From: Bacteroidales bacterium
GTDB lineage: Bacteria; Bacteroidota; Bacteroidia; Bacteroidales; WCHB1-69
Reading direction: 5' to 3'
DNA: 53,950 bases
NCBI GenBank assembly: GCA_016281255.1
Contig: JAEEIG010000170.1
Coordinates: 1 to 53,950 of the forward strand
The notes beneath the pieces are model-generated. The model was not told the origin of the DNA and made no database searches. It saw nothing but the letters and a program-made list of their open reading frames with translations. How positions within the stretch are numbered: position 1 is the stretch's first letter; each line of letters begins with the position of its first letter. The position numbers were made by a program, and so were the translations under genes. Below, one piece after another: positions 22,914 to 43,551 of the stretch.

Positions 22914-23999
22914 TTATCGTTTCACCACTCGCTTGGTGACAGTGCCTTGTTCGGTGATCACACGTACGAAGTAGATGCCGGAAGCACGGGAAGATAAGTT
23001 GATATCTATTTGATAATCATCTACTTGAATAATGTCCAGTTCTTTTCCGAAAACATCAAACACCTCTACTTGATCAATGAGAAATTCTTCGCTGCGGATG
23101 GTGCATTTGCCAGTTGTGGGGTTGGGGAGAACATTGATCGACATGTCAAGCTGATGTGGCGCAATACCAACAGAATCAGTGTCGGAAGGATGTATATACG
23201 ATATTACTATATTGTCCATCCACATGAACCAATTGTAGTTTTGTGGGTAATACCGGAATGCGATGTGATTTCCCGTTCCGGAAATATTTGTTAAGTCGAA
23301 ATCTACCACTTCGTCAGTCCAGCTTCCAGTGATTTCTCCTGCTTCAATGGTACGAACAAGTTCGAAACTGTTTTCATCGGCAGTACTATTCAGCACACCT
23401 ACTTCAAGACGGCCTGAATTTCCCGATTCAGCAAGCATTTGGAAAGAGGCCCGTACATCATGCAGTTCCACATCTAATCGGGGCATCACGGCCATCAGCA
23501 TATCCCCTGCATTATCTGTCCTGAGCCAGAGTGAATGCGAGCCGCCCACATAGTTATGAGTTACTTGGATGCTAGCATTTTCAGGGAAGAAAATATCCGG
23601 GTAAGCCCATGAGGTATACGGGAAAGACCAGCAACGGGGACGAGCGAATTCGTTGTAATACCAAGGTTGGAAGTAGTTTTCGAAGTCTTCCACGTAAGGC
23701 AGGTGAGTTATTGTGGTACATGTTGTAGTAAAAGCTACGGGCACGCTCCACCCACTTGTTTCACCATTGTCACAGTTGGCTTTGACATACACATCGTACC
23801 ATTTCCCAAACTCTAGATTGTTTATATGATACGGTTTTGATGTTACGGTGGTAATCATGGCTTGGGACATAGGTGCTTCATGTAACTTCACTGCGACTTG
23901 CCAAGAGGTTACCTCGCTTTCGGAGATCCAGTCTATATCGGCTGATTGATCCGTGATATTGGTGACGCTAATGTCGTGTGGCAGTGGGCATGTTGAGTG
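22914..23999 (-). pseudogene. C-terminal part of the split giant adhesin, with T9SS sorting domain
   Basis: These 361 codons continue, in the same frame and without a gap, the 2554-residue product that stops at the TAG at 24000-24002. They encode the end of a fibronectin-III-like unit, a further jelly-roll domain (HLPYVEDFEN onward, to MWMDNIVISY) and a type A T9SS sorting domain of about 75 residues (INVLPNPTTGKCTIRSEEF onward, ending TVTKRVVKR). An internal ATG at 23891 could start a 325-residue product, but that would have no signal peptide, so it would not be exported. Together with the upstream part the ancestral protein had 2916 residues or so. It is read as the stranded 3' end of a single gene. 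Confidence 0.85.
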
Positions 24000-26900
24000 C
24001 TAAAGCAGCACATTGTCAAGGTACCCATAACCACGTAGTGCTATGTAATGACCGTTGCCAGTGTAGTTGTGCAGATGCACTTTTTTTTCTGCCCAATGCT
24101 CCACTTGGTGGTACTCTAATTGCATGGTGTCCACTGGAGTGAAAGTGGTTGCATCTTCTGGATCATCCATTACACCTACGATAAGCATGGCTGCGGGGTC
24201 GTAGGTTTTGTATTGGAAGGAAATTTGTAGTTCGTTGATAGGTGTTGCTGGATCTATTTCAGGCAGGATTGCAAAGCTGTTGTATCCGGATGGGAAGACC
24301 ATCATGCCAGGAGTACTGTAGGTGTGGTCGTAATGACCTGGAGTGTACAGATCAATATAAGGGTAATTGCTTGATGTGGTACTTAATCGTTGCCAGCACC
24401 GTGGGAAACTTGCAGTTTCATACGTATCAAAATTGTCAGAATAGGGGAATGATGAAATGTAACCGCAGTCGGTTCGCTGAGAAATGGGTTGAGACCAATA
24501 ACTGTACTCGCTATTGTTGCACAAAGCGCGAATATAAAGGTCGTATGAGTAATCATTTATCAGATTTTGGAATGTGAATATCGTATCCGTCAGGGTGATC
24601 AATTGTGATGGATTAATGGCGGACCCAGTAGGGACGAGAGCCGCTTCCCAAACACTGTCTAAAGGTGAAGATGGGGTAAAGTGAATTGTGATGGTGTGTG
24701 CAGTCACGGAATCCACCGTGATGTGCGTTGGAACGCCACAAAGACAACCTTGTATGGACACGTTGTCCACTGCGGCAGGTGGGTTGGAAACGTTGTATTC
24801 AGTATTGGTCCACAAGAAGTAGAGGCGCTTCACCCCTTGGAACGTGGTGTCAGCTGTAAAGGTGAAATGACTCCAGCTGGGTTGTCCGTAGAAATCGTTT
24901 CCAATTTGCACCGCGCCCGTGGGAACAGCATAAGATATTGAGCCTCCGGGACCTGCATAATCCACAGGGGTCACGGGTGGCCCTATGAACACCTTCATCC
25001 ATGCAAAATCGGCATTCCCTTGCACCCGATAATCAAAAGAAATCTCATATCCTGAATACGAAGGATCAAAATAAAAATCCCGAAATGCCCAGCATCGATA
25101 GATGTTAGTAGTGAAACAGGCATTGGAAACACCATTGTCGTTGGAAATGTATAAAGCTGAATCCCCTGACTGATAAGCAGCATGACCAATGAACCAGCCA
25201 GTGGGCCAGGTGGAATTGGTATAGGTCAACGATGTCCAGTGACTATTTTCTTCTGCATCTTCGAAACCATGAGCGTATGGAATCCTGCCCAATATCGAAT
25301 GTGTCTGATAAGTTTCCTGATTGCTCCAAAAACTTGTCTCACCATCAGAGCAGAGGGATTTCACTTTCCAAGTATAGAAAGAGGAAGGCTCAAGATTCGT
25401 CATTTGATAGGATGTCTCTGTAGTGAGCACTTCTGTAAAAGCACTGTCTGTCAATGCTTTGAATGCTACGATAAATGTATCCGCGTCAGAATGCCATGTT
25501 AGAGTGGCAGCATCATCAAGAATGTTGACTGTGGCTAACTGCATGGGAATGGGGCAACTAGAGGTGCTGATTTGGATATTGTCCACGGCGCCTGGCGGAT
25601 TCGTACCTTCAACATAATCGTTTTTCCACAAGAAGAAAAGGCGTTGTATGCCTGCATGAGTGGAGTCTACGGTGAAAGTAACAGTGTTCCATATAGAATC
25701 GTTTACATAATCACCACCTAATTGCGTGGAGCCTTGAGGTGCTATATTAAAGTAAGAATTACTTTGATAAGCGGGAGGCGTAACAGGCGGTCCAAGATAA
25801 ACATTGAGTCTATCGTAAGGCAAATTACTAAATACCTCCCCAAAACTGCGAACATCAAACGTAATATGATACTCAGGATGTCCTGGGGTGAAATAAAAAT
25901 CTCGGTAAGCCCATACATGGGAAGTAGAATTGACACTGTAGGCATTGGTGGCACCATTATCGTTGGAAACATACAGCGAGTTGCTGCCTCCATTATTCGT
26001 TGCATTGCCTATGTGCCAAATATTCGTGTAGGTTCCGTTTACAAATGTCCATTGATTGTTCTCAACAGTGTCCTCAAAATCGCAAATATAGGGTAATCGT
26101 GCGGTGTTTTCAGATGTTTGGAAGGAGGATTCTGCAGACCAGAAGCTATGGTCAGTGGCAGTGCAGTTGGTCCGCACTTTCCAAACGTATGTGGTCAGTG
26201 GGGCGAGATTGCCAACGGTGACATACTGATCAGGAACTGTTAGATAAGTATATGCTGAATCGTTTGGAAGTTTATAAGCAACAGTATAGGAATCGGCACT
26301 CCCGTTAGCCAACGTCCACGACAAATTAGCAAGTGTGTCCATTACTTGTGCGGTCAATGCAGTAGGAACATGGGCACAATAGAATCCAGTAATAGAGATG
26401 TTGTCAATATAAGCAGGAGAAGAAACGTTGTTGTTGTAACCATAATATTGAAAATATAATCGTTGTAATCCTTTGTGGGTAGAGTCAATCACCATTGTTT
26501 TTGTTTGCCAAATGCAAGTGTCTTGGAATATTGTTGTAAGTTCGGTAGCTCCTGAGACAGTTGTGCCACCAGGAATCGTAGGTGTTCCGATGAAAACTCG
26601 TACATATTCATTGTTTGCAGCATTGCTCAAGCCATAGAAATCAAAAGTTAGGGCGTAGCCGTTATATGTGGAATCAAAGAAAATGTCGCGATAAGCCCAA
26701 TAGACGTGGCTGACCGGATTGTTGTCGTTAACGTAAAGAGCATGTTCACCGTCTCCGCTGATAGAATTTCCTATTTGCCAATTCACGTAACCAGTAGAGA
26801 TTGTGCTGGTGCGAAATGTCCAAGCTGCATTTTCTGTTGCATCCTCAAAATCACAGAAATAGGGCGTTTGAGTGGGAGTCTCGAATGTCTGCTCAGTACT

Positions 26901-29900
26901 CCACTCGCTCTGTCCATCCTCGCCGCATGAGCTTCGTACCTTCCATACGTACTTGGTAAACGGGGTGAGAGTGTTGAGGGTGCAAAATGTGTCAGCAACC
27001 GTGATTTCTTGATATTCCTGAACGTCATAGGGACGGTAGGCCACAATGTAGGAAGTGGCATCACCGGTCCAGGACAAAGTTTGCGCGTTGCCGCTGACCA
27101 TTGATGAAGTTAAATTTTGAGGCAAGGAACAATGAGAACCCACAATCGAGAGGTTATCCAAAGCGGCGGGCGGCTGAATGCCATTGGAGTTGTTGTTAAC
27201 CCACAAGAAATAGATGCGTTGCACGCCAGCGTAGGTGGAATCCAGCTCGTAAGCGTAATGTGCCCAATCGTTCACCTCCGAGAGTTTGCTAACCAACGGC
27301 ACCGCACCTTCCGGCGTAGCAGTGCCAGATGGAGCAGATGGTGTACCCACAAACACTTTCATGTAGTCAGCCGTATTTTGTCCCATGCCCTTGTAATCGA
27401 AAGATAATTGATAAACTAAATGGTTTTCGTCGAAATAGACATCGCGGTACGCCCACACGGACGAGGTTGAGGTGATGGTATAGGCATTGGTCGTACCACT
27501 GTCGTTGGAGATATAGAGGGCGTTGTTATCACCGTAGCCAGTGGCATTGCCTATCACCCATTGGTTCACGGCATTGCCGTTCGCTAATGTCCAATGGCTG
27601 TTTTCGGTCGGGCTGTCGAAGGGACAGAGGTATGGTAAGTGTGTCGGCGTTTGCGTAGTGGTGAAGAATGCATCGCTGCTCCATTCGCTGGTGTCAGAAG
27701 TGCTGCAAATAGAACGTACATGCCATATATAATCGCTACTCGGAATAAGTCCTGGAACCGTGATGGTCGTGTCCTGTGTGGTTAATTCCGTATAAACCGA
27801 ATCGCTCAACACCTTGTAAGCCAATATGAAAGAAGATACGATACCGGCACTTCCAGACGACCAAGCAAACGTGGAAGTAGTGTCTTGCGGATTAGAGGTC
27901 AAGTTGCTGGGCACTCCGCAAGTCACCCCATTGATGGAGATATTGTCAATAGCAGCAGGAGGGTTGGCACCCGTCCACAGGTTGTTGGTCCATAAAATAT
28001 AAAGACGTTGCGCACCCGCATGGGTGGAGTCTATTGTGAAACTTTTATGCGTCCATTGGCTTATAAGATTAAGATCTTCCCCTATTTGAACTAAAGGAAC
28101 AGGAAGATCGCTTTGTAGAGGAGGAAACAAAGGAGTGTCTAAGAACAGTCTCACATAATCATTTCCTTCCTCACCCATTCCTTTGAAGTCTAACGAAAGC
28201 TGATATTCAGGATATCCAGGGTCAAAATAAATGTCACGATATGCCCAGACGTATGCGGGGGGACCATACTCGTAACTATTGGTAACCCCGTTGTCGGATG
28301 ATATGTACAGCATTTTATTGTTGTCGACGATTTCGGAAGGGGTTCCAATATACCACTTGTTGGTATGGTTTGAGTAGTATCCGGAGCTACCATTACTATA
28401 GTCTCCGATGCGGATGGTCCAGTGCTGATTTTCTAGTTCATTATCAAAATCACAGAAATAGGGAAGCTGCGCCAATGTCTTGAAAGCCATCTCGCCACTC
28501 CAGTCGCTCCATTCGTTGTCTGAATATAATGCTTGTACTTTCCAAACATACCATGAAGAGGTTCCTAAGTTGGCGAGAGTGTATGTTGTGTCGGAGGCAG
28601 ACAAAAGTACCTCTGTATAAGTTGAATCAGACTGGGAGCGCCATGCCAGACGATAGGAAAGCGGAGTCTCGGAAGAGTCGGATGTCCAGGATAACTGCGC
28701 AGAATGATAGGTGATATCGGTAGTTGTCAAATCAACAGGGGGCTCGTGAAAAATACCTTTGATGGAAATATTGTCAAAAGCGCCAGCGGGATTCCAAGTG
28801 GTGTTGTATTCAAACCGAAGACGCAATTGATGGTAACCAGAAATGGATGAATCTACGATGATGCTTTGACGAGTCCAGAACCCGGCATTACTTAGATGAT
28901 TACTCAAGAGTGTTTCATCCAGGAATATCTGCATAACTCCCGTTTCGTCGCCTCCTCCTTTACAGTCAAAGGAGATTAGGTATTTCGGATACTCAGGAGT
29001 GAAACAAATGTTGCGTAAGGCCTCAGGATTAGTCGAATTCGGTGTGTAACTATTGGTAACACCGTTGTCTTTTGAGATATACAATGAGTGCCCCTCGTTA
29101 TACGCAACTGCATTGCCGATATATGTTTTATTACTACCACTATTGGGAGTGAGCTGCCAGATAGCGTTCTCCACCGAATCTTCAAAATCACAGAAATAGG
29201 GTAGAATAGCTATCGGAAGTTTAGTCGTGAATGATAGGGGATCACTCCAATAACTACCGGTCGAATCTGAACAATGCGAACGCACACTCCATACGTAGGA
29301 TGTTGTAGAATTCAGACTGCCAATCCGGAGCACCGTGTCGTTGGTTTGAACTTCCGTATAGGCAGTGTCGCCAGTGGATTTGTATGCCACCGTATAGCTG
29401 TCGGCTCCAACGGGTTCCCAAGCAATGAGTGCGAAGGTGTCTTGCACGCTAATGTTTTGCAAATTGTGAACGCGCGGACAGGCGTTTCCTACAATGGAGA
29501 GATTGTCAATGGCTGATGCTGGGTTACGCGACCACATAGCGCGACAGCTGCCGAAATAGATGCGTTGAACTCCTGCAAAGGTTGAATCCACCAGGAAAGT
29601 GTAATGCTTCCAGATAGTGTCTGAATCAAAATAAGTGAGGAGGATGCTTCCAGGTGGTGTCTCTGTATCGACGGTTAGCGATTCGTAAGGCGGTCCGATC
29701 ATTACCTTTGGAGTTGTCCACGTATCCACAATTCCCTTGTAATCAAAGGAGATTTGATAATCAGCATAGCCAGGAGGAAGTTGGATGTCGCGATAAGCCC
29801 AAATGGTCTTTAGACTATTACTATAACTTACCCCGCTTATCGCATTTGTGATGCCTCCATCATTGGAAACGTACAGCGCTTGGTCTCCAGATTGTGCGGT

Positions 29901-31664
29901 AGCAGAACCAATGTACCATCCGTTTATCTCCATGTTTACCATCCGCCAATAGTGGTTCTCTAACGAGTCTTCAAAATCGCAGAAGTACGGGAACTCGGCG
30001 ATGGGGGGCTCGGTCTTGAACTGTATCGTCTCACTCCAGTCGCTTTGGTCGGTGGATGAGCAGTGGGCTCTTACTTTCCATTCGTACTGGGTGTAAATAT
30101 CTAATCCCGTTAATGTGAATGATGTGTCTGTCAACGTGATTGTTGTGAAATCGGAATCGTCTAAGGTTCTATATGCCAGTGTGTAATAGCTTGCGGCTCC
30201 GATTAAGGGCGTATGCCAAGTGAGAACAGCCGAACCCGTGTCAATGTTTGTGGTGGTCAGTTGTTCAGGCATGGCACAGGTGAAACTCTCAATGGTGATG
30301 TCGTCAATGGCACCTGGTGGGTTAGAAATATGAGTGTTGTTATTACTCCAGCAGAAATAGAGCCGATAGACTCCCTGATAAGTTGAATCCAGCAGGAAAG
30401 AATAGGTTTTCCAATTGCTTTGATTGAAAATGTCGCTGCCTAACTTCACTGCTCCGGTGGGCGCATTAGTGGTGTTATTTCCGGGGGTGGCAGGCGGACC
30501 GAGATAGACTTTCATCAATCCGTGATTCATGTTGTTGTAATAACTGTGGTTTTTGGCCACAAAAGATAACCTATGACCGGCATATATGGAGTCGAAGTCA
30601 ATATCTCGGTAAGCCCAAATGTAGGTCACCCCAGATGTGTAACCATAGGAAACACCTTGGTTGTAAGAAACATACATTGAATGGGTTCCGCTGTATTGGG
30701 TCGCCGTACCTACCCACCATTTGTTCGGACCATTGCCGTTGAGGAAAGTCCATTGAGAAGATTCCTCTGCATCTTCAAAGTTACAAACATAAGGTACATG
30801 AGCGATAAATGGAGGTAAGGATACCGATACACCGCTTTTCCAATTGCTGGTATCACCATCATTACAGACGGAACAAACTCTCCATTGTAGAGTGGAATTG
30901 TACGCTATATTATTGACAGTAAAGAAAGTGTCGGTCAATGTGACGTTCGTAAAAATAGTATCAGTAGCAGTTTTGTATTCCAAAACATAATGCTGAGAAG
31001 TAATGTAAGGGCTTGGAGACCAAGTCAGGAGTGCTGAAGTGCCGTTTAATTCAGCATGAGTATTTATGGGTCTAAAACAACCATTGCTGACGTAGTTGAA
31101 AGTCAATATCGGGAGAGAGGACGAAGCGTAGTTAAGACCCGAAGAGAGGTAAGTAAGGTAGGACACCTGTTGAGGTTGACTCATTCCTTTGATCGTTGCC
31201 TCTTTCCAATTAGCCGCAACTGGATTCTCGAACTCTATCAGTAAGTTGCCGCCCATATAGAGGAAGGGATCGTCTAACGTAATGTGCATCTGATTGTTAG
31301 AGATGTTCGATGAGAGTGTGCCAGTCCATACTAACGCGGAGGGTGAGTCAAGGAGACCATTCTGCAAGTCAGTGGCGTTGGTGGTACCGATTCTCACGAG
31401 TTGCGTGCCTCCCCACGAACCATTTGGGGGTGTCTCGAAATAGTAAGTGAGCTCCGTGATATAGTTCCCAATCATGTCTGTCAACAGTGAATCTGGATAG
31501 ATACTTTGCGAACGCTGAACGAAATTCATACGAATTCCATAGACAGGGAAATGACTTTCGGCAATATCCGAACTGTCTGGGCTACAGGGAACAGTAAGGG
31601 TCTGTGCATTCAATCCTGCCATCAGGATCATCGCAATTGCTAATGTCGTAATATGTTTTTTCAT
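24000..31664 (-). CDS. Giant modular surface adhesin, truncated by amber stop
   Basis: The 2554-residue product has a signal peptide (MKKHITTLAIAMILMAGLNA), a unique N-terminal region and then a chain of units. Each has a MAM/jelly-roll-like domain (P-Y-F-C-D-F-E-D ... W-A-Y-R-D ... P-P-A-A-I-D-N-I-S-I) followed by a fibronectin-III-like domain (L-T-W ... Y-x-V-A-Y-K ... Y-V-W-K-V-R). Unit starts lie near 30785, 29978, 29188, 28450, 27625, 26850, 26083, 25265 and 24436, with a tenth near 23690 beyond the stop. The translation stops at TAG (24000-24002) before the T9SS sorting domain, so the secreted form would not be anchored by that system. Codon use is clearly more AT-rich than in neighbours such as the gene at 38530. 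Likely role: surface adhesion or glycan/protein binding. Confidence 0.9.
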   Translation of the reverse strand: MKKHITTLAIAMILMAGLNAQTLTVPCSPDSSDIAESHFPVYGIRMNFVQRSQSIYPDSLLTDMIGNYITELTYYFETPPNGSWGGTQLVRIGTTNATDLQNGLLDSPSALVWTGTLSSNISNNQMHITLDDPFLYMGGNLLIEFENPVAANWKEATIKGMSQPQQVSYLTYLSSGLNYASSSLPILTFNYVSNGCFRPINTHAELNGTSALLTWSPSPYITSQHYVLEYKTATDTIFTNVTLTDTFFTVNNIAYNSTLQWRVCSVCNDGDTSNWKSGVSVSLPPFIAHVPYVCNFEDAEESSQWTFLNGNGPNKWWVGTATQYSGTHSMYVSYNQGVSYGYTSGVTYIWAYRDIDFDSIYAGHRLSFVAKNHSYYNNMNHGLMKVYLGPPATPGNNTTNAPTGAVKLGSDIFNQSNWKTYSFLLDSTYQGVYRLYFCWSNNNTHISNPPGAIDDITIESFTCAMPEQLTTTNIDTGSAVLTWHTPLIGAASYYTLAYRTLDDSDFTTITLTDTSFTLTGLDIYTQYEWKVRAHCSSTDQSDWSETIQFKTEPPIAEFPYFCDFEDSLENHYWRMVNMEINGWYIGSATAQSGDQALYVSNDGGITNAISGVSYSNSLKTIWAYRDIQLPPGYADYQISFDYKGIVDTWTTPKVMIGPPYESLTVDTETPPGSILLTYFDSDTIWKHYTFLVDSTFAGVQRIYFGSCRAMWSRNPASAIDNLSIVGNACPRVHNLQNISVQDTFALIAWEPVGADSYTVAYKSTGDTAYTEVQTNDTVLRIGSLNSTTSYVWSVRSHCSDSTGSYWSDPLSFTTKLPIAILPYFCDFEDSVENAIWQLTPNSGSNKTYIGNAVAYNEGHSLYISKDNGVTNSYTPNSTNPEALRNICFTPEYPKYLISFDCKGGGDETGVMQIFLDETLLSNHLSNAGFWTRQSIIVDSSISGYHQLRLRFEYNTTWNPAGAFDNISIKGIFHEPPVDLTTTDITYHSAQLSWTSDSSETPLSYRLAWRSQSDSTYTEVLLSASDTTYTLANLGTSSWYVWKVQALYSDNEWSDWSGEMAFKTLAQLPYFCDFDNELENQHWTIRIGDYSNGSSGYYSNHTNKWYIGTPSEIVDNNKMLYISSDNGVTNSYEYGPPAYVWAYRDIYFDPGYPEYQLSLDFKGMGEEGNDYVRLFLDTPLFPPLQSDLPVPLVQIGEDLNLISQWTHKSFTIDSTHAGAQRLYILWTNNLWTGANPPAAIDNISINGVTCGVPSNLTSNPQDTTSTFAWSSGSAGIVSSFILAYKVLSDSVYTELTTQDTTITVPGLIPSSDYIWHVRSICSTSDTSEWSSDAFFTTTQTPTHLPYLCPFDSPTENSHWTLANGNAVNQWVIGNATGYGDNNALYISNDSGTTNAYTITSTSSVWAYRDVYFDENHLVYQLSFDYKGMGQNTADYMKVFVGTPSAPSGTATPEGAVPLVSKLSEVNDWAHYAYELDSTYAGVQRIYFLWVNNNSNGIQPPAALDNLSIVGSHCSLPQNLTSSMVSGNAQTLSWTGDATSYIVAYRPYDVQEYQEITVADTFCTLNTLTPFTKYVWKVRSSCGEDGQSEWSTEQTFETPTQTPYFCDFEDATENAAWTFRTSTISTGYVNWQIGNSISGDGEHALYVNDNNPVSHVYWAYRDIFFDSTYNGYALTFDFYGLSNAANNEYVRVFIGTPTIPGGTTVSGATELTTIFQDTCIWQTKTMVIDSTHKGLQRLYFQYYGYNNNVSSPAYIDNISITGFYCAHVPTALTAQVMDTLANLSWTLANGSADSYTVAYKLPNDSAYTYLTVPDQYVTVGNLAPLTTYVWKVRTNCTATDHSFWSAESSFQTSENTARLPYICDFEDTVENNQWTFVNGTYTNIWHIGNATNNGGSNSLYVSNDNGATNAYSVNSTSHVWAYRDFYFTPGHPEYHITFDVRSFGEVFSNLPYDRLNVYLGPPVTPPAYQSNSYFNIAPQGSTQLGGDYVNDSIWNTVTFTVDSTHAGIQRLFFLWKNDYVEGTNPPGAVDNIQISTSSCPIPMQLATVNILDDAATLTWHSDADTFIVAFKALTDSAFTEVLTTETSYQMTNLEPSSFYTWKVKSLCSDGETSFWSNQETYQTHSILGRIPYAHGFEDAEENSHWTSLTYTNSTWPTGWFIGHAAYQSGDSALYISNDNGVSNACFTTNIYRCWAFRDFYFDPSYSGYEISFDYRVQGNADFAWMKVFIGPPVTPVDYAGPGGSISYAVPTGAVQIGNDFYGQPSWSHFTFTADTTFQGVKRLYFLWTNTEYNVSNPPAAVDNVSIQGCLCGVPTHITVDSVTAHTITIHFTPSSPLDSVWEAALVPTGSAINPSQLITLTDTIFTFQNLINDYSYDLYIRALCNNSEYSYWSQPISQRTDCGYISSFPYSDNFDTYETASFPRCWQRLSTTSSNYPYIDLYTPGHYDHTYSTPGMMVFPSGYNSFAILPEIDPATPINELQISFQYKTYDPAAMLIVGVMDDPEDATTFTPVDTMQLEYHQVEHWAEKKVHLHNYTGNGHYIALRGYGYLDNVLL

Positions 31665-31778: not shown

Positions 31779-32345
31779 TGTCCCGTTAAAGTGGACTAAT
31801 CGTTATTTGAAATCGCTGAAATAAAGTCTTTTACGAGTGGTTTTAAGAGCGCGACGATTTGAATTTGTAATTTTGCAGTCAAACAGATTGACTGCAAAAT
31901 GAATAAAGACAAATATGTATTCGCCCAATTGATAGAGTTTCTGAACAATGACAAGTTCCGTCGCCTTGTTGACAAGTATGATGGGAACCGTTATGTCAAG
32001 CATCTCACCTGCTGGAACCAGCTTCTTGCACTGATGTTCGGGCAACTCAGCAACCAGACTTGATAGTGGCCTTCGAAGCCCATCAGTCAAAGTGTTTCCA
32101 CCTCGGTTTAGGTAGTTAGTGCAGCCATCACTGCCTACTGCCTCGTGGCGATTGTACAGCATGATATGCAGTTGAAGCGCTCGACCTATGAAGTCTTGCA
32201 AATCCTCAGCATATCACTCACGGACAAGACACCGCTTAGAGAACTGTTCGATAAGACTTATTCCAATGATGTCAAAGAGCAATTAGATCCCCTTATTCCG
32301 GGGTTGTTTGATTAATAATTAACTCGTCCCGATTTTAACGGGACA
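31779..32345 (+). mobile_element. Degraded IS4-family insertion sequence remnant
   Basis: Terminal inverted repeats of TGTCCCGTTAAA are seen at 31779-31790 and, as TTTAACGGGACA (one extra T before), ending at 32345. Both flanks carry ACTA, a possible short target duplication. Inside are the two ends of an IS4-type transposase with most of the middle deleted. At 567 bp it is far shorter than a whole element (about 1.3-1.5 kb) and cannot encode an active transposase. Confidence 0.85.
31899..32315 (+). pseudogene. IS4-type transposase, internally deleted and frameshifted
   Basis: The intact 5' part (31899-32063) encodes 54 residues starting MNKDKYVFAQLIEFLNN and including KHLTCWNQLLALMFGQLS, the N-terminal DUF4372-type domain of Bacteroidetes IS4 transposases. 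A small deletion after the QLSN stretch shifts the frame: DLIVAFEAHQSKCFHLGLG then continues in another frame to a stop. A large deletion removes the catalytic DDE core. The last part (to TAA at 32313-32315) reads ITAYCLVAIVQHDMQLKRST and ends LIPGLFD, the typical IS4 C-terminus. Clearly inactive. Confidence 0.88.
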
Positions 32346-32723
32346 CTAATGATGTACACACAATCATAAAACTTAATAAAACCTTTTTCGTCATAAATAT
32401 TTTTTTTTGTTAGGCAAATATAATCACGAAAACACTTATCTTTCACAAAAAAAACGCGATTTCGTCCCTTGGGACGTAATTGTGACAAAAAAACAATTAT
32501 TAAATAATGAGAATATAGGAAATATTTGATTGTCAATCCCTTATTCACTTTGAGCTCTTGTTTATATATTCGTTTTTGAATCTATATTTATTACACTATT
32601 TTTCAAAAATCATACAATAACAGCATCGAAAAGAGGCAGTATACACTCCAAAATGACAATATAACTTTCCTTGTTTTGCAAATTTTAGTAATTTTGCCGC
32701 AGAACGGTAAAAATCAATAAACT
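32346..32723. other. AT-rich gap upstream of the LytTR regulator
   Basis: The 378 bp hold no gene that can be supported. Features seen are a short inverted repeat CGTCCC-TT-GGGACG at 32463-32476 and a -7 box at 32689-32696. The inverted repeat could be an operator or a small hairpin. Confidence 0.7.
32689..32696 (+). promoter_or_regulatory. -7 promoter box of the LytTR regulator gene
   Basis: TAATTTTG, 27 bp upstream of the ATG at 32724. Confidence 0.55.
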
Positions 32724-33806
32724 ATGCAATCTTTCAAAAAAACAATTCCCTTGATCACAGGACAGGTAGTGTTCTTTGCGCTCTTCTTTTGGTATTTTCT
32801 TCAGTATAATTTTTTACGTCCATATACAGGTACTTGGGTGGAATGCCTCATAGCCTCAATATTGATAGTGATAATGACCACCAATTTTTGGATTGTATAT
32901 CCCTACATCATTAAGAAGCACACTTACTTCGTTTATTTGTTCGTTTCGCTTTTTGAATCCTTAGTCATCAACGTCATAGAGTATTTGGTAACATATCAAT
33001 CTTCCTTGGCAATTTATGGAGATATTATCCAGCAGGTGGAACATTCAACGATGTTCTTGTTGCCTATGTATTTCAACACCTTTTTGCGAGATTTTGCACT
33101 TTTGGTTTTTGTAGGATTGGTCGCTGACAACATACAACTCTCTGAGAGACAAATCGAAAATGACCAAGAACTGCTTCGTTCTAAAAACCAACTCATGGTC
33201 AGGGATGAAGGGAAGACATGCGTGATTGACATGGCCCCCATATATCTATGCCGTCAGGAAAAAAACTATGCAATACTCTATTCTATTAACGGTCGGAGAT
33301 ATAAAAAAAGAATTTCGCTTAAAAATTTGGAGGATTTATTGAAAGCTCAACAGTTCATCAGAATATCCAAAAGCGATATCATACGTCTTTCATCCATCAA
33401 AAAATGCGAAAACAATTTGCTGATACTCAAAGACACGGTGGTTACCAACACAAAAGCTATTGCTATCAGCAAGTCATTCGTGGAAAATGTTGTTCCTACC
33501 ATTCTGCAATTCCTTCAAAACGAGTTAGAATCGGAGCCAGTTCGGGATAGTCCATTGGAGGAAGAACAGCAGCAGGCAGCCGTTGCCGAACCAGATAGCC
33601 CAATGCTTAATCCAAAGGCCACAAAAATCAAAAGGTACGTTTCGTCCCACCGAGACTGCAAACTGGATGATATCGTTTCTGCTACCAAAATCCCGAAAAG
33701 CACTGTAACCCGCTACCTGAAGGAGCTACAGCAGGACGGCCTCATCGAGTACGTCGGCAGCAAGAAGACAGGCGGCTACAGGGCGGTAGAGAAAAGGGAA
33801 ATGTAA
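32724..33806 (+). CDS. Membrane-bound LytTR transcription regulator with C-terminal winged helix
   Basis: The 360-residue protein has four predicted membrane helices in residues about 10-135, a short coiled linker (SERQIENDQELLRSKNQL), a LytTR DNA-binding domain at about 162-262 (VIDMAPIYLCRQEKNYAILY, then FIRISKSDIIRLSSIKKC) and an acidic linker. It closes with a winged-helix domain at about 297-357 (DDIVSATKIPKSTVTRYLKE, then GLIEYVGSKKTGGYR). Classic LytTR regulators are cytoplasmic response regulators; membrane-bound LytTR proteins are known, but a second DNA-binding domain on the same chain is unusual. It faces away from the giant adhesin gene across the IS remnant and may control it. 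The 3' end is 2 bp from the convergent priA. Confidence 0.85.
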   Translation: MQSFKKTIPLITGQVVFFALFFWYFLQYNFLRPYTGTWVECLIASILIVIMTTNFWIVYPYIIKKHTYFVYLFVSLFESLVINVIEYLVTYQSSLAIYGDIIQQVEHSTMFLLPMYFNTFLRDFALLVFVGLVADNIQLSERQIENDQELLRSKNQLMVRDEGKTCVIDMAPIYLCRQEKNYAILYSINGRRYKKRISLKNLEDLLKAQQFIRISKSDIIRLSSIKKCENNLLILKDTVVTNTKAIAISKSFVENVVPTILQFLQNELESEPVRDSPLEEEQQQAAVAEPDSPMLNPKATKIKRYVSSHRDCKLDDIVSATKIPKSTVTRYLKELQQDGLIEYVGSKKTGGYRAVEKREM

Positions 33807-33808
33807 CC

Positions 33809-36301
33809 TCACGCATCAACATTCACCACGCAGCGGACTTGCTTGAACTGCGGGTTCTGCTTGAACTGGCGCAACACCTCACGAAGCTGCTGTTTCTTGG
33901 TGGCCAGCGTGTTGTCACGGGACATCTTGATCCAGAAATCCTGCAAGAAGTAGTTCTGGATGCGGGAGACCAACGGGGCGGCAGGCCCCATGACATTGCC
34001 GGCGAACACTTCGCGCAACATGCCCTGCAGCTGCTGGGCAGCCGCCATAACGGTCTGCTCCTCAGTGTGTTTCAACGTGATTTTCACCATGCGGGTGATG
34101 GGCGGCAAACGGAACTGCTGGCGTTCGGCAATCTGACTGGTGTACATCGCCATAAAGTCGTTGGACTCCACATAGCGCAACGCCGGATGGTGCGGCTGGA
34201 AGGTCTGGATGACCACCTTTCCCGGCACCTCCTTGCGCCCCGCGCGACCACTCACCTGCGACAACAGCTGGAACGCCCGCTCGAAAGCCCGGAAGTCGGG
34301 GAAGGAGATCAGCGCGTCGGCATTGAGGATGCCGACCACACTCACGCGGTCGAAATCCAACCCCTTGGTCACCATCTGCGTACCGACCAAAATATCCGTT
34401 TTGTGTTGCTCGAAATCGGTGATAATCTGCTGGTAGGCGTTCTTCGAGCGCGTGGTGTCCGTGTCCATGCGGGCAATGCGGGCCTCAGGGAATATCGCAG
34501 CCAATGTGTCTTCAACCTGTTCTGTACCAAACCCTTTCATCTCAATATCCGTACTGTGGCATGTGGGGCACTCGTGCGGCACCTCAATGGCATAACCACA
34601 ATAGTGGCACTTCAGCAGGTTGGTCTTCTTATGGTAGGTCAGCGTCACGTCGCAATACTGGCACTTGGGCATCGACTCGCAGGTGTGGCAGATCATGCGC
34701 ACCGCGTATCCGCGCCTGTTCTGGAAGAGGATAATCTGCTCCTGGCGTTCCAACGCCTGCGCCATCTGCTCAATCAGGAAGTGGGAGAACAGCCCCTGCA
34801 CCTCATGGCGCTTGGTGGCCAAACTCATGTTAACGGTGTAGATATCAGGAAGATGACTGTCGGCATAGCGCTGCATCAGCTCCACCAAACCGAACTTGCG
34901 GAGCTGTACGTTGTAATAGCTCTCCAACGACGGGGTGGCCGTACCCAAAAGCGTTTTCGCCCCATGAATCTGCGCCAACATCACGGCGGCATCGCGGGCG
35001 TGGTAACGAGGAGCGGGATCCATCTGCTTGTAAGATCCGTCATGTTCCTCGTCCACGATCACCAGTCCCAACTCTTTGTAAGGCAGCAACAAAGCCGACC
35101 TTGCTCCGAGAATCAACTGGTATTTGGAGGTGTCGTCCTGCTCGCCGCCGCTCAGCACGCGGTTCCAGATTTCCACCCGTTCGTATTCGTTGAAGCGGGA
35201 GTGATACACCCCTACCCTATCCCCGAAATATTTCCGCAACCGATTGACTATCTGAGAAGTGAGCGCGATTTCGGGCAACAAGTACAACACCTGTCTCCCC
35301 TGTTTCAGCACCTCGTCAATCAGCTTGATATAGATTTCCGTCTTGCCGCTGCCGGTAACGCCATGCAGCAACGTAACGGGATAATGTTCGAAACTCTGCT
35401 TGATTTGCCGGAAGGCAGTCTCTTGCGGAGCCGAAAGCGCCACTTCCGCCGTCTGGTCCGTGGCAAATTCGGCCAATCGGGAAATCACCCGTTCTTCCGA
35501 CTGCAAAACACCCTTTTTGAGCAACGTCTGCAGACTGCTCTGGCTGGCATGCTCCCCTTTCAACAGTTCCGCTTTGGGGACAGCGGCATCGAAATGGTAG
35601 CGGTTGTTTTGGCGGGTCTGCATCATAAAGCCCAGCAGTGTGTCGGCCTGCGAGGAGGTTTGGGGCTTCGCATTGAGCCGGTCGAGCAGCGCCATGAACT
35701 CGGCTTCCTGATCATAGGGCGGTGCCAACTTTACAACCGTCTCCTTCTTGGGTTTATAAGGATTCCGAATCTCCTCATCGGTGATAATCGCCCGTTTGTC
35801 CACCAGCGACTTGATGATGGGCATCACCTTGGCCACCTGCAGGTTCTTCGCGACATCGGCCACGGTCATGGTCTCGCGATGGATCAGCAACTCCACAACG
35901 TTGAGTTCGTAGGGAGTGAGCACGGAGACGTCGCCGTCGAATTCGGGATGGATTTTGACCTTGGTTTCGCTGGCGAGCCGCAAGGCGGAGGGCAGCGCGG
36001 CGGCCATCACCTCGCCTATGGTACACATGTAGTAGTCGGCAATCCACTGCCAGAGGCGGTATTGTGCCTCGGAGACCACGGGGCGGTCGTCGATGACATC
36101 CAGCACATACTTGACGGTGAACTGTTTGGGCGCGTTTTCATGCACTTTCTCCACAATGGCAGCATAAAGCTTGTTGTTGCCGAAGGGGACGATGACTCTC
36201 ATGCCAAATGCCAATTTGCCATTCAGCACCTGCGGCACGCGGTAGGTGAAACGCGCCTCGATGGGCAACGGCAAAATCACATCCACAAAGAAAGTCTGCA
36301 T
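33809..36301 (-). CDS. priA: Primosomal protein N' (PriA helicase)
   Basis: PriA binds abandoned replication forks and reloads the replicative helicase. The 830-residue protein has the N-terminal 3'-end-binding domain (ADVILPLPIE-like opening FFVDVILPLP), Walker A GVTGSGKT (314-321), the DEEH box (417-420) and eight zinc-binding cysteines at 538, 541, 547, 550, 565, 568, 578 and 581. Helicase motifs V and VI follow (GTQMVTKGLDFDRV and QVSGRAGR). The length is slightly greater than that of E. coli PriA (732). It lies 8 bp downstream of the periplasmic-binding-protein gene, so both may share a transcript. Confidence 0.97.
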   Translation of the reverse strand: MQTFFVDVILPLPIEARFTYRVPQVLNGKLAFGMRVIVPFGNNKLYAAIVEKVHENAPKQFTVKYVLDVIDDRPVVSEAQYRLWQWIADYYMCTIGEVMAAALPSALRLASETKVKIHPEFDGDVSVLTPYELNVVELLIHRETMTVADVAKNLQVAKVMPIIKSLVDKRAIITDEEIRNPYKPKKETVVKLAPPYDQEAEFMALLDRLNAKPQTSSQADTLLGFMMQTRQNNRYHFDAAVPKAELLKGEHASQSSLQTLLKKGVLQSEERVISRLAEFATDQTAEVALSAPQETAFRQIKQSFEHYPVTLLHGVTGSGKTEIYIKLIDEVLKQGRQVLYLLPEIALTSQIVNRLRKYFGDRVGVYHSRFNEYERVEIWNRVLSGGEQDDTSKYQLILGARSALLLPYKELGLVIVDEEHDGSYKQMDPAPRYHARDAAVMLAQIHGAKTLLGTATPSLESYYNVQLRKFGLVELMQRYADSHLPDIYTVNMSLATKRHEVQGLFSHFLIEQMAQALERQEQIILFQNRRGYAVRMICHTCESMPKCQYCDVTLTYHKKTNLLKCHYCGYAIEVPHECPTCHSTDIEMKGFGTEQVEDTLAAIFPEARIARMDTDTTRSKNAYQQIITDFEQHKTDILVGTQMVTKGLDFDRVSVVGILNADALISFPDFRAFERAFQLLSQVSGRAGRKEVPGKVVIQTFQPHHPALRYVESNDFMAMYTSQIAERQQFRLPPITRMVKITLKHTEEQTVMAAAQQLQGMLREVFAGNVMGPAAPLVSRIQNYFLQDFWIKMSRDNTLATKKQQLREVLRQFKQNPQFKQVRCVVNVDA

Positions 36302-38529: not shown

Positions 38530-41500
38530 ATGAGAAAACATTTGACAATCATCACACTGATATTATGGGCATTCTGCGGATTCGCGCAGAATTTCTCCCC
38601 GCTTTCCGAATCTTTCGAGGGGATTTTCCCACCTCAGGGGTGGACCAACCTGCATGTTTCAGGCACTCCGCAGTGGTCCCAAACCAACACCTTGGAGTAC
38701 TGTGCCGGCGCCCAGGAGGGGGCGAATTACGTCATGGTGGGCTTCGGCCAGAACGACAACTACCTGATCACGCCGAAGTTATACCCGCAGATCGGCGACT
38801 CCATCGTCTTTTACATGGGCATCGAAAGTCCCAACTACAACATCGACAACTTCACCACTGTGGAGGTTTCCACCACAGGCACCGCGCCGGCGGACTTCAC
38901 CACCGTCAGGAATCTCACGGTCGCGGATTTCACCATGGGGGACAACTGGTACCGTTTTGCCGTGAATCTTGGCGGCTACGCGGGTCAAGGCATCTACGTG
39001 GCCTTCCACAACAAAGTCACGGCCTCGGGGATGCTCGCCGGCGGCAACGTCTATCTCGACAATGTGAGCGGGCCTGACATGGCGGTGGCGGGCTGCACGA
39101 CGCCGTTGAATTTAGCGGCCACGAACATCAGCACCTCATCGGCCGATTTGACCTGGCAATCGGACGCCAACGAATACATCGTCTATATCCGCGCATTCGG
39201 GGAGACGGAATACAGCGAGCAGACCAACGCCACGCTGAACCCCTACGACAGCACATTCCAAGTCAACGGGCTGGTTCCCGGCACCACCTACCAGTGGTAT
39301 GTCGCAGCCATCTGCAACGACACGTTCAACAGTCCGGTGGCCGCCTTCACCACCTCGTGCGTGCCCTACGAAGCCGACATTCTCCCCTACTCCACCACCT
39401 TCGCCGAGTGCACGTCGTTCGGCGATTTGCCGAACTGCTGGATCCGCGTAGAGGGCAGCGAATTCAACAACTCCGGGATCTACTTCCCCGGGGCCCACTC
39501 CAACTCGTTCTACGGTTACGACTGGTACACTGGCGACACCATCCTCCGGTTCACCCCCGAGGACTCCATACGTCACTGGGTGGCCATGCCGGCGGTGAAC
39601 ACCGACATCCACCTGCTGCGGGTGCGGTTCCTAGCGACGCCTTACGAGAACATCGCCTCTTACGGCCGAATGGAAATCGGGCTGCTCCCGGACATCAACG
39701 ACACCGCGAACTTCGAGATTGTGAGCACGATAGAGGCGGTCAACCTGCCGTCAACAGACTACGTCCAATACACTGTGCCCTTCCTCAACACCACCCTTTC
39801 GGGCAACAACCGGCTGGTCTGTTTCCGCTGCATCGGGCAATCCGGCAGCGTTTGGTACCTGGACAATGTCACTTTGGAATACATCCCCCTTTGCGAGGAG
39901 CCGTATGATTTACAAGCCTACAGTACTTCCGCCACCACCGCGGACCTCTCCTGGGTTCCCGGCGACAGCACGCAAGTCCACTTCACCATCCACTACAAAC
40001 CGCAAAACACTCCCGTTTGGATGACCGAGACCGTCACCATCACCGACTCCGCCCACCACCAGCTGACCGATCTGCAACACAGCACCCTTTACGAAGCCTA
40101 CGTGACGGCGCCGTGCGCCCCCGACCAGCAGAGCAATCTCGTGACCTTCACCACCGACTGCATGCCCTTCGAGGCCGACAGCCTGCCTTACTATATGGAT
40201 TTCGAAAACGTGGCCGAATATGAGCTGCCCCTTTGCTGGACACGGCTGGCGGGACACACGGAATACAGCCACAGCTATCCTTGCGCCATCGAAGGATCGT
40301 CGGCGCATGAAGGCGGCATTTGCATCCGCTTCAGCGGGAACCAGTCCGACCCCAACTTGCTGGCCTTACCCGCGATGGAGGAGAACATCCAGCAACTCCG
40401 AATCCGGTTCTGGATGAAGCCCGGCGGCAACATGACCCCCTACGGCAGTATGGAGATCGGGGTGATGCCGGATCTCAACGACACCTCCGCTTTCGAGGCC
40501 GTGAGCATCATAACCGCCTCTCAGTTAAGCAATAGCGACTATCAACTTTACAAAGTGTCCTTCCAGAACACCACACTCCCCGGCAGTGGCAACCATATCG
40601 TGTTCCGTTATGCCAACCCGATGAACACCGCCTCGGGGTACGCTTGGTATATCGACGACGTGACGGTGGAGTACATCCCCGACTGTTACGAACCTGAGGG
40701 GCTGGCCATCACGGGGGTGACGGCGACCACCGCCACGCTCACATGGAGTTCGGAGGACAACGTACCGGTAGCCAGCACTGTCCATTACGCCGTTGCAGGC
40801 GACACCGCGTGGGTTCACCAAGCCGTCCCCGCCACCGCCAACTTCAGCGCGGCACTCGCCGGTCTGACCCCAAACACGACCTACACGGCCTACGTCACCG
40901 CCGATTGCGCCGCCGACATGCCCTCTCTGCCGGTCACCTTCACCACCGAATGTGCCGGTATCACCATGTCATCCATCCCGACGACCTGGGATTTCGAGAA
41001 TGAAAATCCCTCCGGCACCCTCTCGCACCCGCTGCCCGCCTGCTGGAAACGATTCGCCACCACCAGCGCCGAGGCTCCCTACGTGTACTCCAACGCCCTG
41101 TATGCCCACCAAGGGGTCAAAATGCTGAACTTCAACAGCACAGAGGGTTACGCCATTCTTCCTCCGCTGGACGACAGTGTGCCCGTCAACGCTTTGCAGC
41201 TCTCCTTCTTTGCCCGCAGCAGCACCGACGAAAACGGCACCCCATTCACCTCCCAGTTCCAGGCGGGTGTGATGACCGACCCCTATGACACCGCCACATT
41301 CACAAACGTACAGTCGTTTTCGGTGACCGGCGGGACCTACTTCCCGGTGGAGATTTCCTTCGCCGGCTATGCGGGACAAGGCCGTTATCTGGCTCTCCGT
41401 CAACTGGACAACGGAAACGTGAACGGCTATGGCTTCATCGACCAAGTGACCTTGGAATACATCTCCGATTGCGAGCGCCCGTATGATTTGTATGCGGACG

Positions 41501-43551
41501 ACCTCTCGGTCTCATCCGCCCGGCTGCACTGGAGTTCAAACGCCCCGCAATTCTCCGTCTATTTCAAAGAAGAAGGCACGGACAATTACACCCTTTCCGG
41601 CACCACAACGGACACCTTCATGGTGATATCCGCCAATTCGGGGAGCTCCTACGACTGGTATGTCTCCGCGAACTGTGCCGACACCATCCTGGCCTCCATC
41701 CCTTCGGGGTTCAGCACCTTGTGCGCCCCGGTATCCGTCTCGTCCCTGTCTCCCTGGACAGAGAACTTTGACGCTCCCGGCACAGCCCACCAAGTCCCTT
41801 ACTGCTGGATACGGCTTTCCTCTTTCGTATGGAATGCGACGGAGACTTATCCTGCCATTGATGATTATTATGAGGAGAACTCCCAGAACCTGTTGATGGC
41901 CGGCGCCAATGCCACGAATCTCATTGCGTTGCCTCTATTCGCGCAAGACCTCAACACTTTGAGGCTCTATTTCAGCGCGAAAGCCGCCACTGTCACCTCC
42001 AACAATCTGGAAGTCGGCGTGCTAAGTTCCCTTTCCGACACTTCCGGTTTCCAGGTCATTTCCACCCTGCACCCTCAAGACTATCTTGCGGAATTGGACC
42101 CCCTCACGCCTTACATCCCCTTTGTCATGGACCTCGACACGGTTCCGGATCTCACGGGATGGATTGCCCTCCGCCTGCGTTGCAACGACACCGTCATGAG
42201 CCAATGGCACTTGGACGACTTCAAAGTGAAGCCCATCCCCGAATGTTCCGAGCCGCTGAATCTGACCGTCAGCGACATCACCTCCTCCAGCGTGGATTTG
42301 TCCTGGGAAAGCGATGCTGACACGTTCGACGTCTATTACCAAAGCGTCAACGAAGCCACCCCTCATCTTCTCCCTGGCGTCACGCTGACCAACGGTGTGT
42401 TCACGCTCTCCGGGCTCAACACGGGGACTCATTATATTTGGTATGTGGTCGCTCATTGTCCCGGCAATGACAACAGCGATGCGTCGCATACGGGAGGGTT
42501 CTTCACCGCCTGTGGCGATATCGCGACATTCCCCCATCTTGAGGATTTCGAGTACGGCATGGAATGTTGGACCACGGAGTCCGTCACCGGCGACAACGGC
42601 TGGATGGTCGTCAGCGACCCCCAATACGCCGCAGGCGGCAACAGTTGTGCGGTGTTTCTCTATTATTCCGGAAACTCCGCGCGCCTGACTTCCCCTGTTT
42701 TCGATTTCTCCGGTTACGAAAACATCACCTTGGATTACGATTTATACATACGTCCTTACAACAACGTTTACGATTCCGTAGGGGTCTATTATCGCACCTC
42801 TTCCGATGCCCCGTGGACCTATCTGCGCTCCCACACGGACAACATGGGGACCAACACCTACATCTCCTACAGCACTCCTTTGCCCAACACCGGCAACGAA
42901 TACCAAGTGATGTTCCTTGGCGAAGGTCTTGACGGGAACTCCATCTTCCTCGACAACATTTCGGTGTCGGGGGATAGCATCCACGACACACCGGACACCT
43001 GTCCCGTCCCGACAAATCTGGAGCAACAGATTGCATTACGGGATGCGGCCAACATCACGGTCTGTTGGGTCGATCATGCCGGCGTTTCGCAATGGAACCT
43101 GCAATATCGCAGAGAGAACAGCGGTGAGGAGTGGACCACGGTAACCGTGACAGGGACGCCATGTCACGAAATCGTCGGGTTAATCAACGGCACCGTGTAT
43201 GAGATTCGGGTGCAGGCGATCTGCGACGAGGAGAGGCTCAGCGAATGGTCGGTGATTCTTTCGGCCATTGCGAGCGACAACGGCATTGAGAATCATCCGG
43301 ACGGTCACATCCTTCTCTTCCCGAATCCGGCCAGCGATTATGTGGAAATCCGCGCGAACGGGAACGAGCTCGACATCACAGGAATAGAGGTTTATGATGT
43401 GTACGGGAAATTAATCCGCACCGTTGTCGTGGCAGACAATAACAATTCCCGACAGACCCGGATCAACGTGGCCGGTTTGGCGGCCGGCACCTATTTCGCA
43501 CGTCTCCACACCCACCAAGGGGTGGTCACGAAGCCATTCGTAAAACGGTAA
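38530..43551 (+). CDS. Giant modular T9SS surface protein (cleaved-adhesin/fibronectin-III type)
   Basis: The frame is open further upstream but antisense to another gene. The ATG at 38530 gives a signal peptide (MRKHLTIITLILWAFCGFAQ) behind a -7 box, so the product has 1673 residues. It starts with a cleaved-adhesin-like jelly-roll domain (FSPLSESFEGIFPPQGWTN). Five further jelly-roll modules follow, opening with phrases such as LPYSTTFAEC, LPYYMDFENV, IPTTWDFENE, LSPWTENFDA and FPHLEDFEYG, interleaved with fibronectin-III-like domains (A-D-L-T-W ... Y-x-W-Y-V). A type A T9SS sorting domain closes the protein (LLFPNPASDYVEIRANG onward, ending VVTKPFVKR). It is GC-rich, unlike the adhesin at 24000-31664. 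Likely exported by the T9SS and attached to the cell surface. Confidence 0.92.
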   Translation: MRKHLTIITLILWAFCGFAQNFSPLSESFEGIFPPQGWTNLHVSGTPQWSQTNTLEYCAGAQEGANYVMVGFGQNDNYLITPKLYPQIGDSIVFYMGIESPNYNIDNFTTVEVSTTGTAPADFTTVRNLTVADFTMGDNWYRFAVNLGGYAGQGIYVAFHNKVTASGMLAGGNVYLDNVSGPDMAVAGCTTPLNLAATNISTSSADLTWQSDANEYIVYIRAFGETEYSEQTNATLNPYDSTFQVNGLVPGTTYQWYVAAICNDTFNSPVAAFTTSCVPYEADILPYSTTFAECTSFGDLPNCWIRVEGSEFNNSGIYFPGAHSNSFYGYDWYTGDTILRFTPEDSIRHWVAMPAVNTDIHLLRVRFLATPYENIASYGRMEIGLLPDINDTANFEIVSTIEAVNLPSTDYVQYTVPFLNTTLSGNNRLVCFRCIGQSGSVWYLDNVTLEYIPLCEEPYDLQAYSTSATTADLSWVPGDSTQVHFTIHYKPQNTPVWMTETVTITDSAHHQLTDLQHSTLYEAYVTAPCAPDQQSNLVTFTTDCMPFEADSLPYYMDFENVAEYELPLCWTRLAGHTEYSHSYPCAIEGSSAHEGGICIRFSGNQSDPNLLALPAMEENIQQLRIRFWMKPGGNMTPYGSMEIGVMPDLNDTSAFEAVSIITASQLSNSDYQLYKVSFQNTTLPGSGNHIVFRYANPMNTASGYAWYIDDVTVEYIPDCYEPEGLAITGVTATTATLTWSSEDNVPVASTVHYAVAGDTAWVHQAVPATANFSAALAGLTPNTTYTAYVTADCAADMPSLPVTFTTECAGITMSSIPTTWDFENENPSGTLSHPLPACWKRFATTSAEAPYVYSNALYAHQGVKMLNFNSTEGYAILPPLDDSVPVNALQLSFFARSSTDENGTPFTSQFQAGVMTDPYDTATFTNVQSFSVTGGTYFPVEISFAGYAGQGRYLALRQLDNGNVNGYGFIDQVTLEYISDCERPYDLYADDLSVSSARLHWSSNAPQFSVYFKEEGTDNYTLSGTTTDTFMVISANSGSSYDWYVSANCADTILASIPSGFSTLCAPVSVSSLSPWTENFDAPGTAHQVPYCWIRLSSFVWNATETYPAIDDYYEENSQNLLMAGANATNLIALPLFAQDLNTLRLYFSAKAATVTSNNLEVGVLSSLSDTSGFQVISTLHPQDYLAELDPLTPYIPFVMDLDTVPDLTGWIALRLRCNDTVMSQWHLDDFKVKPIPECSEPLNLTVSDITSSSVDLSWESDADTFDVYYQSVNEATPHLLPGVTLTNGVFTLSGLNTGTHYIWYVVAHCPGNDNSDASHTGGFFTACGDIATFPHLEDFEYGMECWTTESVTGDNGWMVVSDPQYAAGGNSCAVFLYYSGNSARLTSPVFDFSGYENITLDYDLYIRPYNNVYDSVGVYYRTSSDAPWTYLRSHTDNMGTNTYISYSTPLPNTGNEYQVMFLGEGLDGNSIFLDNISVSGDSIHDTPDTCPVPTNLEQQIALRDAANITVCWVDHAGVSQWNLQYRRENSGEEWTTVTVTGTPCHEIVGLINGTVYEIRVQAICDEERLSEWSVILSAIASDNGIENHPDGHILLFPNPASDYVEIRANGNELDITGIEVYDVYGKLIRTVVVADNNNSRQTRINVAGLAAGTYFARLHTHQGVVTKPFVKR

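Follow-up and report, generated by a model that had tools for sequence, protein, structure and literature searches.

The regulator locus

The window, the whole 53,950-nucleotide stretch of Bacteroidales DNA that was analysed, contains an intact gene for a membrane-bound LytTR regulator within a cassette that is otherwise degraded. The features that make up the locus are as follows.

22,914–23,999, minus strand: in-frame continuation of the surface protein below, with a type IX sorting domain (Por_Secre_tail, E = 6.5e-11)
24,003–31,664, minus strand: giant fibronectin-III surface protein, the likely regulatory target (fn3, E = 2.9e-55, nine stretches)
31,899–32,312, plus strand: decayed IS4-type transposase remnant with several stops, in the place of the lipoprotein body (DUF4372, PF14294)
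32,356–32,394, minus strand: remnant of a lipoprotein gene, the first ~13 codons (tblastn with the relatives' lipoproteins, E = 6e-4)
32,463–32,476, no strand: palindrome CGTCCC-TT-GGGACG, candidate operator in the divergent control region (conserved in relatives)
32,689–32,696, plus strand: probable −7 box of the regulator promoter, TAATTTTG (conserved in the window's sub-group)
32,724–33,806, plus strand: membrane LytTR-winged-helix regulator gene, 360 residues (open reading frame, Pfam, AlphaFold2 model, 82 further full-length homologues)
33,809–36,301, minus strand: downstream core gene on the docking side of the window's cassette (open reading frame; its genus orthologues have other genes here and no cassette)

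An in-frame TAG at 24,000–24,002 cuts the fibronectin-III gene short, and the frame continues beyond it for 361 codons. The IS4-type remnant matches DUF4372 over its first 52 residues (E = 3e-19); a 132-residue open reading frame at 31,803–32,201 on the minus strand was rejected as a gene because it overlaps this remnant on the other strand. The core gene downstream of the regulator presumably encodes a PriA-like primosomal helicase. As the relatives' priA genes that we examined lack an adjoining cassette, the place of the window's cassette appears to be specific to this species or to a few, and the idea of a conserved regulator beside priA was dropped. The window also encodes a second fibronectin-III-like surface protein of 1,673 residues with a C-terminal sorting-like end (38,530–43,551, plus strand), with no regulator of the LytTR-winged-helix family alongside.

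Domain architecture of the regulator

The 360-residue chain divides into four parts, and the family's exchange junction lies within the last of them.

32,733–33,185, plus strand: four transmembrane helices, residues 4–154 (AlphaFold2 helices; family profile matches the relatives' PF06580 histidine kinases)
33,189–33,530, plus strand: LytTR DNA-binding domain and following helix, residues 156–269 (PF04397, E = 1.2e-9; Foldseek to the AgrA/ComE LytTR domains)
33,534–33,611, plus strand: disordered linker, residues 271–296 (pLDDT below 50 over residues 271–292)
33,612–33,785, plus strand: C-terminal winged helix, residues 297–354 (HTH_IclR and MarR_2 matches, AlphaFold2; resembles the C-terminal winged helix of SLFN_AlbA_2 proteins)
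33,756–33,779, plus strand: 24 nt encoding GSKKTGGY, the family's exchange junction (homology ends of pairs with the same regulator at different sites; codon preference)

In Pfam searches, LytTR matches residues 164–255 at 38.6 bits (E = 1.2e-9), against a curated cut-off of 22.6. The winged helix (residues ~305–348) scores above the HTH_IclR cut-off within the whole protein (E = 8.3e-6) and again as an isolated C-terminal piece (E = 8.9e-7), for which MarR_2, HTH_5 and HTH_24 also pass. Only the helix-turn-helix part of the IclR/MarR domain set is matched, with no effector-domain match in Pfam or NCBIfam. The AlphaFold2 model, built on an alignment of 30 family members, has a mean pLDDT of 85.8. 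It places N-terminal helices at residues 4–27, 37–65, 68–105 and 108–154, LytTR strands at 156–247, and a winged helix of three helices (297–308, 314–321, 325–337) and two strands (341–346, 350–354); residues 271–292 are disordered. Foldseek against the PDB ranks solved LytTR domains first (3d6w and AgrA, 4xqj; E down to 5e-5), while MarR/IclR-type winged helices (TtgV, 2xrn; ZitR) rank lower (E ~ 0.03). The initial annotation had proposed four membrane helices, a LytTR domain at 162–262 and a winged helix at 297–357, and these borders proved accurate: both DNA-binding domains exceed their profile cut-offs and every part is modelled with confidence apart from the disordered linker.

The architecture is stable across the family. 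All 30 aligned members match the LytTR profile (E ≤ 0.01) and 26 of the 30 match MarR_2. Profile searches gave no match to the receiver domain of LytTR response regulators, the N-terminus being taken up by the four transmembrane helices, and in place of the separate membrane inhibitor gene beside a soluble LytTR gene that marks LytTR regulatory systems (LRS), transmembrane and LytTR parts form one chain in 30 of 30 aligned members. The transmembrane part is related to known sensors: the family profile matches residues 6–150 of LytS-type histidine kinases (PF06580) in relatives (E = 1e-23). With transmembrane helices and DNA-binding domains on a single chain in the predicted topology, the regulator is best read as a membrane-embedded one-component transcription factor, and we infer that its winged helix binds DNA as well.

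A multi-copy family centred on one genus

We gathered 83 full-length copies of the regulator, 82 from one Bacteroidales genus (a count that includes public contigs closest to the genus) and one from another Bacteroidales family. Family matches occur in 52 of 60 relatives, with up to eight per genome, and most genus members carry full-length copies with unchanged domain order. The source genome itself has a second full-length copy, 26% identical overall and 57% identical in the winged helix. On one contig (G004:C26), two regulator matches of equal score and identity (L141 and L142) lie ~10 kb apart, an apparent duplication. The large paralogous family rules out a one-off protein.

Outside the genus, the full layout was seen in only one of 393 Bacteroidales genomes, among the best few candidates scored per genome. 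The one full-layout homologue seen beyond the genus (L131, in G156) has 412 residues, and its gene and a lipoprotein-like gene diverge from each other. In 89 Bacteroidota genomes from other orders no match reached E ≤ 1e-12, so that a wide distribution in the phylum was not seen in this sample, and a plasmid-borne gene was rejected, with no match among 72,556 plasmids.

Membrane LytTR proteins are already known; the combination of LytTR domain and winged helix is undescribed in the literature that we found. Pfam and NCBIfam hold no family covering the whole regulator, and in the open-access literature we found no LytTR domain joined to a second DNA-binding domain on one membrane chain. The suggestion that no family with this layout had been described thus held up, and the count of homologues with the same domain order adds that the family is a multi-copy one.

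Divergent operons and candidate operators

The nearest upstream open reading frame lies on the opposite strand in 76 of the 83 loci (P of about 5e-16 relative to a 50:50 split, taking each copy as independent). The divergent operons typically encode secreted or surface proteins. A conserved lipoprotein family of ~165 residues, with no Pfam match, is the nearest upstream frame or lies close by in 41 of the 83 loci; it is a candidate co-sensor, although its presence in just 41 loci means that it is not obligatory. The C-terminus of this family (L069:6991–7488 and relatives) is very conserved. The exported products encoded behind it are varied; among the scanned ones are an SpvB/Tc-like repeat protein, proteins carrying type IX sorting or Fib_succ_major domains, and a group of radical-SAM protein, outer-membrane barrel and exporter, which looks like a modified-peptide cluster. 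Such a group (exporter, barrel protein, radical SAM, GG-leader-like peptide, lipoprotein and regulator) occurs as a block of ~9 kb at 99.4–99.7% identity in three species (L085/L086/L087; G014, G008, G006), ending +36 to +357 after the regulator. We read the block as a recent transfer of a probable modified-peptide cluster.

The aligned divergent regions of several sub-groups show direct-repeat pairs beside each promoter. Direct repeats matching at 8/9 positions with a pitch of 21 occur in 13 of 32 non-redundant control regions (0.8 expected) and with a pitch of 22 in seven of the 32 (1.2 expected); apart from a mild excess at 19, the counts at all other pitches come close to those expected. 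An AgrA-type LytTR operator consists of two 9-bp repeats about 12 bp apart, and the 9-bp direct repeats at a 21–22 bp pitch are likely LytTR sites. This is a result at the level of the family, the window's own control region having a palindrome instead of clear 21/22-bp repeats. The palindrome is kept in three relatives (L033/L059/L034) and largely in a fourth (L060). The −7 box of the window's regulator promoter can be compared with the Bacteroidetes consensus, TAnnTTTG. In three loci (L092, L097, L146) the ~200-bp control region is repeated upstream in an array next to other genes, as if promoter regions had been left behind by displaced earlier regulators; a widespread 200-bp repeat array serving as exchange sequence was rejected, the repeats being found in a few loci only.

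Together, the retained divergence and the LytTR-type repeats in the intergenic regions favour the initial proposal that the adjoining adhesin is the regulator's plausible target. The further proposal of a grip on two DNA sites is borne out as far as the two-domain layout goes; simultaneous binding is hypothetical. Across the family, no second conserved operator turned up that could be assigned to the winged helix, and a palindromic one shared by all members was likewise rejected, inverted-repeat enrichment being weak and spread over spacings.

These operators bear on whether the winged helix binds DNA at all. The protein might be a plain membrane LytTR regulator whose winged helix serves dimerisation or partner binding, and the finding of family-wide operators of LytTR type only, with weak enrichment of inverted repeats, would fit this. 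So would the transmembrane-LytTR forms of about 261–267 residues without a winged helix in the same genus, and the similar winged helices that the regulator's matches at the C-terminus of SLFN_AlbA_2 proteins, a domain for which we know of no assigned function there. However, the recognition-helix and wing residues (T327, R330, S346, K347 and GGY) are among the most conserved of the protein and the helix matches MarR/IclR DNA-binding profiles, so that we consider a winged helix without DNA contact rather unlikely.

Exchange at the 3′ end of the regulator gene

Downstream of the regulator, the loci differ in which core genes they adjoin; from their sequences we take these to include priA, mutS, rlmN, nspC, ispE, xerD, ftsX, dnaG and others. 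Five regulators from five species (L092/L093/L097/L146/L168) are 87–97% identical in their transmembrane and LytTR parts and are followed by unrelated genes. The regulators L067 (G006) and L147 (G020) are 22% identical and sit at the same downstream site, where the DNA that starts with the first base of their GSKKTGGY codons is 99% identical. Among 32 different-site pairs (at least 85% identity; partly non-independent), homology ends +23 to +40 nt from the start of the GSKKTGGY codons in 22 and extends further in the rest. The junctions cluster in this interval, spread over several bases rather than falling on one crossover base. Toward the 5′ side, homology stops near −220 to −310, at the divergent promoter's −7 box, or where the lipoprotein gene has its 3′ end, and the stops cluster near that −7 box. 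Because the homology is bounded at both these ends, the travelling piece comprises the regulator and the whole control region. At the level of sequence, the comparisons show that regulator and control region have been exchanged together among sites on the chromosome and that the 3′ junction lies within the GSKKTGGY codons.

The data are assemblies, mostly metagenome-assembled genomes of unstated origin. Many of the relatives' contigs end or start within the winged-helix coding region, and since many end at the GSKKTGGY motif, single joins could be wrong. In the same-genome contig pairs L038/L039, L041/L053, L044/L055 and L049/L050, ~140 nt of winged-helix coding sequence are shared before the contigs diverge; such pairs represent either mixed strains or genomes with two or more regulator copies that are nearly identical and differ in their 3′ flanks.

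A docking site between msbA and ftsX

In the region before ftsX, a regulator tail is lacking in 28 of 30 genus genomes and present, at equal distance (−91), in two, G006 and G020. Where the site is empty, as in G013 and G025, the divergent starts of an msbA-like gene and of ftsX are separated by the sequence ..GGTACGATATTTTTGTTTCCC... The occupied site of G006 and G020 has ..GATATTTTTTTCGG.. on the left and ..GGTAGTGCTTTTTGTTTCCC.. on the right, with TTTTT on both sides; its left end carries what we take to be the last part, at the 3′ end, of a sequence encoding a type IX sorting domain. The two genomes have identical outer junctions and different contents, msbA–ftsX being the one site at which the left junction is resolved. 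We interpret this site as the product of a single old insertion whose contents were later replaced in place. At a TonB-receptor site, the cassette is absent in five relatives, a comparison of presence and absence rather than of junction bases.

Changed flanks could also arise from ordinary large inversions or translocations at dispersed repeats. An inversion between inverted copies would likewise join a regulator to a new downstream flank, and the genes beside priA differ between most species, so gene order is generally fluid. Rearrangement of this kind is nevertheless unlikely to account for the data, as the homology blocks are bounded on both sides with different genes beyond each, and msbA–ftsX keeps both outer junctions while the inside differs.

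The codon for Ser346 is AGC in 75% of cases (background 14–17%) and that for Lys347 is AAG in 80% (background 37–45%), and third-position GC climbs from 0.53 to 0.71 toward the GSKKTGGY motif. These preferences above the gene background would be expected if the winged helix were kept mainly as a docking sequence for cassette recombination and not for its function as a protein. They fit recent exchange, though recent common ancestry could also explain them, and the codon bias may itself reflect recent shared ancestry by way of exchange. As the entire winged helix, including its recognition-helix residues, is conserved as protein, and not the 3′ end alone, a role mainly as docking sequence is very doubtful. 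That the joins to different flanks are assembly artefacts at a multi-copy sequence, as the contig ends and the shared ~140 nt might suggest, is highly improbable, since the junctions fall within about 24–40 nt, much shorter than assembly read or k-mer lengths, are seen again and again in independent assemblies, among them on long contigs of G020 (99% complete, 20 contigs), and are exact in the comparison with the empty site.

Proposed mechanism

Our preferred reading, to which we assign a probability of about 0.65, is that the protein is a membrane one-component regulator of its divergent surface- or exported-protein operon, carried in cassettes that are exchanged by recombination at the 3′ end of its own gene. 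The four-helix bundle, a putative descendant of a LytS-like sensor, would receive an envelope signal, possibly together with the conserved lipoprotein. The signal would alter the LytTR domain, which would occupy the repeats next to the divergent promoter, and the flexible linker may let the winged helix reach another site or another protomer and so stabilise the complex. Exchange would proceed by homologous recombination where genes have conserved 3′ ends, on one side in the winged helix's wing and on the other, judging from the one site studied, in the type IX sorting domain. Cassettes would thereby be replaced in place at docking sites, giving new combinations of regulator, surface protein and site, and an incoming module, carrying its own promoter region, would take control of the operon where it lands.

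A more specific version, which we put forward tentatively, is a dedicated cassette-exchange system serving surface and antagonism genes, in which docking sites keep the regulator's 3′ end while modules are replaced there within populations, perhaps by a specific recombinase. The module would consist of the surface operon, lipoprotein, promoters, and the sensor and LytTR part of the regulator, and the winged helix would serve as DNA-binder and docking sequence alike. Among the neighbour genes listed for the loci, no integrase was recognised and no recombinase was identified as belonging to the cassette.

The regulator adds an undescribed layout to the known membrane-bound regulators, and because the LytTR-type repeats name likely binding sites, it is linked to a testable target. 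If the exchange reading is true, swapping of regulator-operon modules at fixed sites lets these bacteria change both the surface proteins that they make and the sensors that govern them, and one could predict from sequence how surface and competition genes turn over in uncultured Bacteroidales of gut and rumen.

Comparison with known systems

In the FCT region of Streptococcus pyogenes, adhesin operons and their own regulators form a recombination mosaic at a fixed chromosomal site. There, in contrast to the Bacteroidales cassettes, a single site is involved, the regulators belong to other families, and the junction is not known to fall inside the regulator's DNA-binding domain.

The individual parts of the regulator have counterparts elsewhere. 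SLFN_AlbA_2 proteins (L057, L135, L137) have at their C-terminus a winged helix much like the regulator's, one that ends in GSKKTGGY or a sequence resembling it; they have no transmembrane or LytTR part, and the regulator has no AlbA_2 or HATPase part. LytS-type histidine kinases (PF06580) of LytSR-type two-component systems have a homologous four-helix sensor part, whereas in the regulator the kinase and receiver parts are missing and the transmembrane helices are joined directly to LytTR.

LytTR regulatory systems (LRS; Zou et al. 2018, cited in PMC13384398) share with the regulator a LytTR output, a membrane partner of 3–4 transmembrane helices, and a role in controlling products that are exported or antagonistic, for instance bacteriocins. 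Their membrane protein is a separate inhibitor gene, while in the Bacteroidales regulator it forms one chain with LytTR, which bears a winged helix in addition. CoxC, an MHYT-LytTR protein (PMC11347149), is likewise a one-component regulator with membrane-bound LytTR output, but it senses through its MHYT domain and has a single DNA-binding domain. Transmembrane transcription regulators are common according to a survey (PMC10269533), whose searched passages do not mention a LytTR and winged-helix layout.

HigX of Caulobacter crescentus, a LytTR factor with four transmembrane helices that has been discussed as a 'fused LRS' (PMC13384398), resembles the regulator in its four N-terminal transmembrane helices without an apparent periplasmic domain, its linker and LytTR domain, and its one-component organisation. 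HigX lacks the C-terminal winged helix and controls higBA and SOS-linked genes; the Bacteroidales family, in contrast, is multi-copy and associated with exchanged surface cassettes.
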